Source: Holophagaceae bacterium (lineage in GTDB: Bacteria > Acidobacteriota > Holophagae > Holophagales > Holophagaceae). Taken from it: 52,110 nucleotides of DNA. Of this stretch, positions 6,599 to 52,110 are shown piece by piece; positions within the stretch are counted from its first letter, which is position 1; every line of letters starts with the position of its first letter. The stretch is taken from the NCBI GenBank assembly GCA_025357545.1, contig JANXPB010000066.1, positions 1 through 52,110 of the forward strand. The letters are read 5' to 3'. The translations under genes and the position numbers were made by a program. A model generated the notes under the pieces. That model was not told where the DNA came from and made no database searches. It worked only from the letters and a program-made list of their open reading frames with translations.

Positions 6599-6828
6599 CC
6601 CTCGTGGCTCACGGCGTGTTCCCAGTCCACCTTGAGGTGCTGCTGCACGAAGTATTCCTCCACCTCGGCCATGTGCTTCAGGGGCCCATGGAAGAGCTTG
6701 GTGTTGCTCATTTCAGGGTCCAGGGCCTTGACCACCAGCAGGCCCATGCCCGGCGTGTCATGCACCATCACGAACCAGTTCTTGTAGTCGCCTTCGACGA
6801 CGCGCCCCAGTTTTCCGATCGGAATCAC
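6595..6828 (-). CDS. small conserved-looking cytoplasmic protein, function unknown
   Basis: The product is 77 residues from GTG at 6828, which has an AGGAG site five bases upstream; an earlier GTG at 6852 that overlaps the lpd stop (GTGA) would add eight residues. The chain has a beta-strand start (VIPIGKLGRVVEGDYKNW), a GMGLLVV strand and an amphipathic C-terminal helix with His and Glu (HMAEVEEYFVQQH). I do not recognise it. Its tight placement after lpd, and before the exported protein with a 4-base overlap, suggests one transcript; a role alongside lipoamide chemistry is possible but only inferred. Confidence 0.6.
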   Translation of the reverse strand: MIPIGKLGRVVEGDYKNWFVMVHDTPGMGLLVVKALDPEMSNTKLFHGPLKHMAEVEEYFVQQHLKVDWEHAVSHEG

Positions 6829-30168: not shown

Positions 30169-30417
30169 TATACTGATTCGCATTCAAAAAATAAAGATTC
30201 ACCACCATCCATCTTTACGTCTTGTGTATCGGCCAAGCCGATACCGAGAAGGCACGAAGCCACCAAGCAAAGCACCAAGCTCCGCCGCCCTTGATCCGCG
30301 AAGCTGCCACATGTGGTGGTTCTTCTCGGCATCGGCTGCGCCGATACACGAGACAAAGTGAAACTTGGTGCCCTTGGTGTCTTGGTGGTTCTATTTTATT
30401 GAATGCAACTTGGTATT
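30169..30417. mobile_element. MITE related to an IS630-type element
   Basis: The roughly 250-bp segment is an imperfect palindrome: left end TTATACTGATTCGCATTC and reverse-complemented right end TTAATACCAAGTTGCATTC, each followed by A-rich sequence, ACCACCA blocks and GTCT-GTGTATCGGC. Internal small palindromes (GTATCGGC-CAA-GCCGATAC) sit in each arm. It has no coding capacity. The right end matches the element end at 51925-51950 (TATACCAAGTTGCGTTCATAATAG, two parts), so it is probably mobilised by an IS630-type transposase. Confidence 0.65.
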
Positions 30418-50315: not shown

Positions 50316-50747
50316 ATGCAATCCTTGAAACAACTCATTGAAGAGAAGCGCCGTGGCGTAGTCTCGGTGGGCCCTTCCGACATGGTGCTGCAGGCCCTGA
50401 AGCTCATGGCGGAGCACGACATCGGCGCGCTGCTGGTGATGGAAGAGGGCAAGCCCGTGGGCATCTTTTCCGAGCGGGACTACGCACGGAAAGTCGTGCT
50501 GCAGGGCAAATCTTCCAAGGACACGCCGATCCGGGAGGTCATGAGCGAAAAGATCATCTTCGTCACGCTCTCCCAAAGCGTGGAAGAGTGCATGGCCGTC
50601 ATGACCGATCGCCGCATCCGGCACCTGCCGGTGCTGGGGCCAGAGGGCGAGGTCGCCGGCTTCGTCTCCATCGGCGACATGGTGAAGGAGACCATCTCCG
50701 AGCAGAAATTCGTCATCGAGCAACTGGAGCATTACATCACTCGATAA
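50316..50747 (+). CDS. CBS-domain pair protein
   Basis: The 143-residue protein consists of two CBS motifs: residues 8-65 (SDMVLQALKLMAEHDIGALLVMEEGKPVG) and 73-135 (MSEKIIFVTLSQSVEECMAVMTDRRIRHLPVLG). CBS pairs bind adenine nucleotides and act as energy or redox sensors; stand-alone ones like this often modulate a neighbouring enzyme. It is divergent from the transhydrogenase operon, which is a plausible but unproven client. Start ATG 50316 has a GGGGGAGG site. Confidence 0.92.
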   Translation: MQSLKQLIEEKRRGVVSVGPSDMVLQALKLMAEHDIGALLVMEEGKPVGIFSERDYARKVVLQGKSSKDTPIREVMSEKIIFVTLSQSVEECMAVMTDRRIRHLPVLGPEGEVAGFVSIGDMVKETISEQKFVIEQLEHYITR

Positions 50748-51000
50748 GGCGGGTCTTCACCCGCCGCACCTTCAGCACCACGAAGAGCACAGGCATCACC
50801 AGGAACACCAGGGGCAACAGGAAGGTCCTGCCGCTTATGATGGCGATGGCCAGAGGCCGTTGGTCGTGCAGTTACCGAAGGTCCGGATTGGCGGCCACCA
50901 GCACCACCGCGGCCTCCTCCGGCGCAAGCCCATCGCTGCAATCGATCCCCAGGGACTTCAGGATCGGATGGCCCAGGCCCGGTAGCGCCGGCACCCGACC
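50737..51000 (-). pseudogene. two in-frame C-terminal gene remnants, one RND-like
   Basis: On the minus strand one frame reads from near 51000 an ALPGLGHPILKSLGIDC, LAPEEAAVVLVAANPDLR end followed by TAA (50876-50878 area), and immediately on, in the same frame, HDQRPLAIAIISGRTF and LLPLVFLVMPVLFVVLKVRR ending TGA at 50737. The second part resembles the last transmembrane helix and tail of an RND efflux pump; the first is not recognised. A TGA blocks the frame upstream. Both are fragments too short to function and overlap the CBS stop by a few bases. Confidence 0.5.
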
Positions 51001-51048: not shown

Positions 51049-51924
51049 TCAACGAACCATGCCGACCACCACCAACTGGAAGGTGCCGGGCAGCATGGGC
51101 GGGCGGCTGCGCTGGACTGGCTGGCCGGGTTTCGCCGCGGGCGCCGGGCCGAACTCCGCCGCGGGCAGGTAGAGCAGATGGGTCTGCTCATCCACCGCCA
51201 GGGTGCGCGCGCTTTTGAGGGTGGGGACGGTGGCGGCCACGGCGAAGTGGTTGGGGCCGTCGCTGCGGACCACCGTGAGCGTGCCTTCGCCATTCGCGGC
51301 ATAGACCGATCCCGTGCCGGGATCGAAGGCCGCGCCATCGCAGCCCCCGCCGATAGGAAGCGTCTGCAGTACCTTGCCGGTGGTGGCGTCCACCACGGCC
51401 ATCAGCTTGTTGCCGCCCACGGCGAAAAGCAGGTGATGGGCCACATCGATGGCCAGGCCCGTGGGTTCTTCCGGGGGCTTCAGGGACCACCGGGCTGTCA
51501 CCGTGCGGGCGCGGGCGTCGATGACCAGCAGTTCATGGGTGTCCTCCACGTTCACAAAGACCTGGCCCTTGCCGTCGCAGGCGGCGAATTCAGGCTTGCC
51601 GCCCATGGGAATGGTGCCAGTCACTTCGAGGGTCTCGGCGTTGAACACCGTCGCGTTCTTGCCGCGCCCGTTGAAGGTGAAGACCTGGCGGGTGGCCGGA
51701 TCGTAGAGGATGGCATCGGGATTTTCGCCGGTGGTCTTCACTTCCTTGACCACTTCCAGGGTGGAGAGCTTGAAGACCGTCACGGTGTTTGCACGGCCGT
51801 TGCTCGTGAAACCGCGGTCCAGTTCCCGGGCGAAGGCCACGCCGTGGACGCCTTGGGTATTGGGGATCTCGCCCTTCACGTTGCCGCCGAGGTCCAGCAC
51901 CATGACGCGGGTGGAGCGGGGGAC
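51049..51924 (-). pseudogene. YncE-like beta-propeller gene, 5' end removed by an IS insertion
   Basis: The remaining frame encodes about 290 residues of a YncE-type seven-bladed propeller with repeated blade motifs (GVHGVAFARELDRGFTSN, then NPDAILYDPATRQVFTFNG, then PEFAACDGKGQVFVNV). Intact members are about 330-350 residues with an export signal. Here the coding sequence continues upstream of the first ATG (51903) as VPRSTRV, a typical blade sequence, then meets a TAA exactly where the IS end begins (51925-51927). The signal peptide and first blade are therefore gone. An internal ATG at 51903 could still be used, giving a non-exported 284-residue protein. Confidence 0.72.
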
Positions 51925-51953
51925 TTATACCAAGTTGCGTTCATAATAGGTCT
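51925..51953. mobile_element. terminal inverted-repeat end of an IS630-type element
   Basis: The sequence TTATACCAAGTTGCGTTC, then ATAATAGG, matches the ends of the MITE at 30169-30417 (right end reverse-complemented: TTAATACCAAGTTGCATTC, then AATAAAATAG). It starts at a TA, the expected IS630 target dinucleotide, and lies between the broken propeller gene and the transposase stop. Only this end is in the window. Confidence 0.7.
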
Positions 51954-51954
51954 A

Positions 51955-52110
51955 TCAGCCATGGATAGGGACTACCGGCCGGAGGGATTTGGGATTGTCT
52001 CCGATGGTCTTGAGGGCCAGTTCCAAGCGGTCCTCGACGGCCCGCATGGAGGGGAACACCAGGTTGTCGAACCACGTCTCCCGCAGCACTTTCCAGACGT
52101 TCTCTTGCGG
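51955..52110 (-). CDS. IS630-family transposase, C-terminal part (runs off the window)
   Basis: The frame gives 51 residues beginning PQENVWKVLRETWFDN and ending LRPVVPIHG before TGA. The PQENVW motif is the NPxENxW end of the IS630/Tc1-mariner DDE domain, whose Glu is the third catalytic acidic residue. The N-terminal part lies beyond 52110. The stop is about 25 bp inside the element end, as expected for compact IS elements. The sequence shows no sign of decay in this part. Confidence 0.75.
   Translation of the reverse strand, partial: PQENVWKVLRETWFDNLVFPSMRAVEDRLELALKTIGDNPKSLRPVVPIHG

Follow-up and report, generated by a model that had tools for sequence, protein, structure and literature searches.

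RND metal and multidrug efflux clusters with a CopS/SilS-type sensor kinase combine a permease, an adaptor, an outer-membrane protein and a response regulator, all of which are shared by the gene cluster described here, and the sensor kinase of this cluster scores above the TIGR01386 cut-off, as in CopS/SilS-type systems. Different from the described clusters, however, its permease stays below all curated NCBIfam cut-offs, and in the genome analysed (G000) only a remnant is left of the native copy, not an intact RND cluster. The cluster also holds a beta-propeller gene, whose product shows sequence likeness over several blades to the PQQ-associated propellers of the YncE/TIGR03866 type, with 1l0q and 3vgz (YncE) as solved relatives. 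Then again, the match to TIGR03866 (E 3.7e-17) reaches 62.4 bits against a curated cut-off of 287.3 and that to the YncE family NF052280 (E 1.1e-10) 40.8 bits against one of 400. Unlike YncE/TIGR03866 the propeller is thus below every curated equivalog cut-off, and unlike these proteins it lies inside an RND efflux cluster in G002, in G004 and on contig C151 of G000. By cluster and by sequence it would be a periplasmic YncE/TIGR03866-like protein that accompanies an RND pump controlled by a CopS/SilS-type kinase.

The second described system that bears on this locus is the IS630/Tc1-mariner group of mobile elements, for two members of which, ISY100 and IS630, PMC2170065 reports duplication of the 2-bp target TA. 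The insertion sequence (IS) which in G000 stands between the two halves of the propeller gene has short terminal inverted repeats as well (left TACCAAGTAGCGTTCATAA and right TACCAAGTTGCGTTCATAA, with 1 mismatch) and a target holding T..A. Its 56-aa transposase tail alone matches no Pfam family, the full transposase being unassembled, but relatives of the tail with 33-39% amino acid identity are DDE_3 proteins (E 1.5e-13 to 6.5e-22), in which DDE_3 and a winged HTH are encoded in two overlapping frames as in IS630/Tc1-mariner elements. Judged from these transposase relatives, the IS resembles IS630. A search with the tail returned 1 distant match in plasmids and none in viral contigs. The IS differs from ISY100 and IS630, with their 2-bp TA (PMC2170065), in that it duplicates the 3 bp TNA; insertion into TA with a 2-bp duplication, by which the IS630 family is recognized, was not what we found.

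The two halves of the propeller gene

The window, that is, the whole stretch of DNA that was analysed, is the entire 52,110-bp contig C84 of G000, a genome in 239 contigs that is 95.6% complete. Position 52110 is therefore an assembly break inside the IS, and the other IS end could be searched for solely on other contigs. The 3' part of the propeller gene, lacking the signal peptide, lies on the minus strand at 51049 to 51924. As the sequence-only reading had it, the frame is open up to 51924, where it starts with VPRSTRV, and it continues over 291 codons without internal stop until the stop codon of the gene is reached at 51049. The adjoining positions 51925 to 51927 read TTA on the plus strand and TAA in the sense of the gene, a stop in frame with the propeller at a codon for which the orthologs have Tyr or Phe in the codon alignment. 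This in-frame TAA had been noticed before and placed in the IS end; it is, however, the target-site duplication and thus outside the IS. The right end of the IS, 183 bp on the minus strand including the 3' end of the transposase, begins at 51928 with TACCAAGTTGCGTTC and continues to 52110, where the contig stops. The frame of the transposase tail reaches to 51955, which leaves 27 bp to the junction, close to the 28 bp estimated earlier. The 18-base end motif with TNA is far more frequent in the window than chance would give, as 0.01 occurrences are expected per shuffled window. Although it contains an internal ATG at 51903, the propeller remnant has no signal peptide and is most likely non-functional.

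The signal-peptide region, for which the sequence-only reading had recommended a search, is found on contig C236. There the 5' half (MPILAPFLLSF...LDSKGARI), comprising the signal peptide and the first propeller blade, sits at the contig end against the IS and is cut at the codon that corresponds to the cut on C84; the flank reads MPILAPFLLSFALPSHPTAEAKPKAPAPPTFMVLRSLKAGGEGGWDYVALDSKGARI, then TAA, then IS. An IS630-like element hence does part the propeller from its signal peptide, as had been proposed, and the same 3 bp (TAA) border it at both cuts. When the halves are joined with TAA counted once, the ortholog length is obtained at the junction.

The codon alignment places this TAA opposite TAT in G002 and G003 and TTC in G004 and in the paralog on C151. 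Since the duplication copies the sequence that was there before insertion, and both copies read TAA, the stop was present before the element arrived, and since orthologs carry Tyr at this codon, a nonsense mutation preceded the insertion. A single base change from TAT would account for the stop as well as for the TNA site. The view that the IS beheaded the gene is consequently not supported, as the in-frame TAA is the older lesion. The case corrects a common inference, namely that an IS found at the edge of a gene must have inactivated it: here the target duplication has kept the codon as it was before insertion, when a stop was already in place.

The earlier suggestion of a recent event agrees with the purifying selection under which the gene appears to have stood until recently. 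The 3' half is 83% identical on the amino acid level to its G002 ortholog, dN/dS is 0.14 in this comparison (0.10-0.22 over all pairs), and with G003 and G004 as outgroup there are 15 derived residues in G000 and 16 in G002. With C151 as outgroup the numbers are 22 for the G000 copy and 12 for G002, which could hint at some, earlier relaxation in G000. As the 3' half still looks constrained, the gene died recently in relation to the divergence of the species, though not through the IS.

Decay of the efflux locus and its second copy

In G002 the cluster follows a gene which, from its translation, we take to be pntA, and reads onwards CBS, RND permease, adaptor, outer-membrane protein and propeller, and then the divergent PepSY, response regulator and sensor kinase genes. 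By synteny with G002, the CBS-domain protein gene of the window (50316 to 50747, plus strand; Pfam CBS 4.4e-25) is the conserved left neighbour of the cluster. Two remnants, both on the minus strand, lie between it and the propeller: the 3' end of the RND permease gene at 50773 to 50862, which matches G002 (locus L031, to position 1586; 80%) and G004 (locus L033, 402-491; 77%), and a piece of the outer-membrane efflux (OEP/TolC-like) gene at 50848 to 50975, joined to the former by deletion. The overlap of 15 positions at the join (50848-50862) suggests that the deletion involved short homology. About 5.1 kb of RND, adaptor and outer-membrane pump genes are deleted in the window, and on C236 the 3' end of the kinase gene is fused to a PepSY remnant at about 6788-6799, with the loss of about 1.9 kb of two-component genes. 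That the propeller gene alone was hit is not supported, as the efflux cluster around it has been deleted on both sides.

A complete second efflux cluster with its own propeller is present in G000 (L012, contig C151, 707-10202); it is divergent, being roughly 72% identical. Two strong matches to the propeller are found in only one of the five members of the genus, G000. G002, G003 and G004 have one each, that in G003 among other neighbours and that in G004 beside one weak match, and no match is found in G001.

IS ends and the structure between the halves

The right end of the IS borders both halves of the gene. Besides C84 it is found at four more contig ends of G000 (C236, C30, C66 and C222), and those of C84 and C236 are identical over the 140 bp compared except for one base, at IS offset 42, which is deleted in C84 and present in the other four right-end contigs. 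The left end, whose sequence differs from that of the right end past the 19-base repeat, is found at five contig ends (C91, C193, C194, C227 and C230). With the right end on both halves, the split is inexplicable by one simple IS copy, so the simple single insertion of the first reading is rejected and two head-to-head copies or some other structure with two right ends are needed. Simple insertions, with the left end on one half, the right end on the other and the same duplication on both, do occur in this genome, at C194/C66, where an ExbD gene is split, and at C30/C91, the flanks of which adjoin each other in G001 and G002.

We regard as the probable history of this locus the late decay of a redundant efflux cluster, in which a nonsense codon was followed by the IS, now present in two copies head to head. 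The native cluster beside pntAB-CBS has been stripped by deletion of the pump genes and of most regulatory genes, and a codon for Tyr, as found in the nearest orthologs, would have become TAA, which ended the propeller and by the same change created a TNA site, the target of the IS630-like element. The element would then have inserted with duplication of TAA, and a second copy would have followed, for instance by insertion into the TAA that adjoins the left end of the first, with a head-to-head pair as the most likely result. We infer this order of events, according to which the IS landed in a cluster that was already coming apart, as well as the arrangement between the halves, and redundancy would be the cause. 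The interior of the IS pair is absent from the assembly, and a search of the bin for a junction of two left ends gave 0 matches, but such a short contig may have escaped binning. Because the stop was already there and the neighbouring genes are lost as well, the locus looks like the commonplace decay of a spare cluster that bears an uncommon double scar. The observation is real and for the most part ordinary, a pseudogene in a redundant, shrinking efflux locus, in which the TNA duplication and the paired right ends are the unusual features.

A less probable account is that one ordinary IS insertion is seen with two right ends owing to misassembly or to a mixture of strains with opposite IS orientations. 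The assembly is of the metagenome type and the left and right ends share short terminal repeats, both of which would favour such an artefact. A mixture should, however, branch at the junction, whereas in 8 of the 10 IS-end contigs the IS part is 137-140 bp long, C84 being counted among them by the 140 bp past its private 1-bp deletion; on C222 and C230 it is shorter. These lengths fit an unbranched graph with k=141, a value inferred from the IS lengths and from the contig name of L047 rather than documented, and they argue against strain mixture. In addition, left ends adjoining TAA or TTA were not found among the IS left ends of the genome.

We consider it rather unlikely that a composite of two IS copies, with their right ends outward and chromosomal DNA between them, moved as one unit into the TAA site. 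In that case the left ends of C193 (TGA) and of C227 or C230 (TCA) would lie on the inside. This proposal accounts for the outer TAA duplication common to both halves and for C193, for which no right-end partner with the matching duplication was found in the bin; genus synteny was of no help here, as the C193 locus is not syntenic. It would, however, require a cargo of tens of kb with pst- or kdp-type genes. In addition, a sixth right end, with TCA, was found on L047 (JANYBQ010000366.1), a contig filed under a Betaproteobacteria MAG. Over 2,235 and 426 bases, L047 matches the G000 contigs C26 and C109 at 100% identity, for which reason horizontal spread to a betaproteobacterium was rejected; by this identity L047 is probably a misbinned contig from the assembly of a sister sample and thus belongs to the same population. 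The TCA left ends of C227 and C230 can hence pair with C222 and L047. Pairing C222 with C227 or C230 by way of G004 proved fruitless; G004 differs past the C222 end.

Highly improbable, finally, is the insertion of a palindromic MITE-like derivative with two right ends, which would agree with right ends alone being seen at the propeller gene and with the many non-autonomous relatives of the end family in the genome, but the MITEs observed have two different ends instead of two right ends of this IS, and the arms at the propeller differ by 1 bp.

The TNA target and relatives of the IS

With up to 2 mismatches allowed, the 16-base end motif is matched 36 times in the genome and its reversed control 0 times. 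At the 33 distinct end-motif sites read in G000 loci, T occupies position -3 in 32 and A position -1 in 32, the exceptions being one CTA and one TCG; A at -1 belonged to the search motif, T at -3 did not. Within the MITE-like group (consensus about 365 bp) 19 left ends were read. For 12 of them a right end was found as well, and in 10 of the 12 two-ended copies the 3 bp are identical at both ends, L059 and L074 being the misses. Shuffled pairing attained 10 identical pairs in 11 of 10,000 cases. One MITE-like relative of the same end family, 245 bp in length, lies in the window at 30171 to 30415 on the minus strand with TTA on both sides. Relatives in other genomes are consistent with TNA as well (TCA/TCA in L037, TAA/TAA in L042), whereas the copy on C200, with TGA and TCA, is inconsistent.

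The ExbD/TolR-like gene interrupted by the same IS, with the left end on C194 (L080) and the right end on C66 (L010), is in frame when TGA is taken a single time; a Pfam ExbD match extends across the junction, and the rejoined gene aligns to G002 with 148 codons in 444 bases. TNA restores the length of ExbD and of the propeller, both of which would gain bases and stops with a 2-bp TA duplication; the latter was rejected for this reason. The split gene on C194/C66 neighbours other ExbD-like genes.

Read on one strand or the other, any TNA is a stop codon, so that the element would land on stop-codon sequences and its duplication would restore the stop that was hit. We tentatively raise the possibility that a lineage of IS630/Tc1-mariner-like elements, together with a MITE family, has shifted from a 2-bp TA to a 3-bp TNA duplication and hits stop-codon sequences, at this locus a nonsense codon and then its own duplication, with a head-to-head pair as the outcome. 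Should the TNA duplication hold true for the full-length IS, it would depart from the TA rule that is taken as general for IS630/Tc1-mariner elements. A literature search within the accessible journals, which included PMC7471000 and PMC2170065, found no description of a TNA duplication for IS630; absence is thereby unproven. A preference for genuine gene stop codons is not claimed, since 6 of 19 stop-type sites close an open reading frame of at least 60 codons against a background of 14.7% (104/709), which is a weak difference.

A remnant of a related IS with nested MITE-like copies was also seen at 3307-4161 of L048 (G048). It lies between two genes whose products, judged by their translations, we take to be MoaD-like and DNA polymerase III gamma/tau-like, and the presumed MoaD-like gene uses the left TGA of the remnant as its stop codon.
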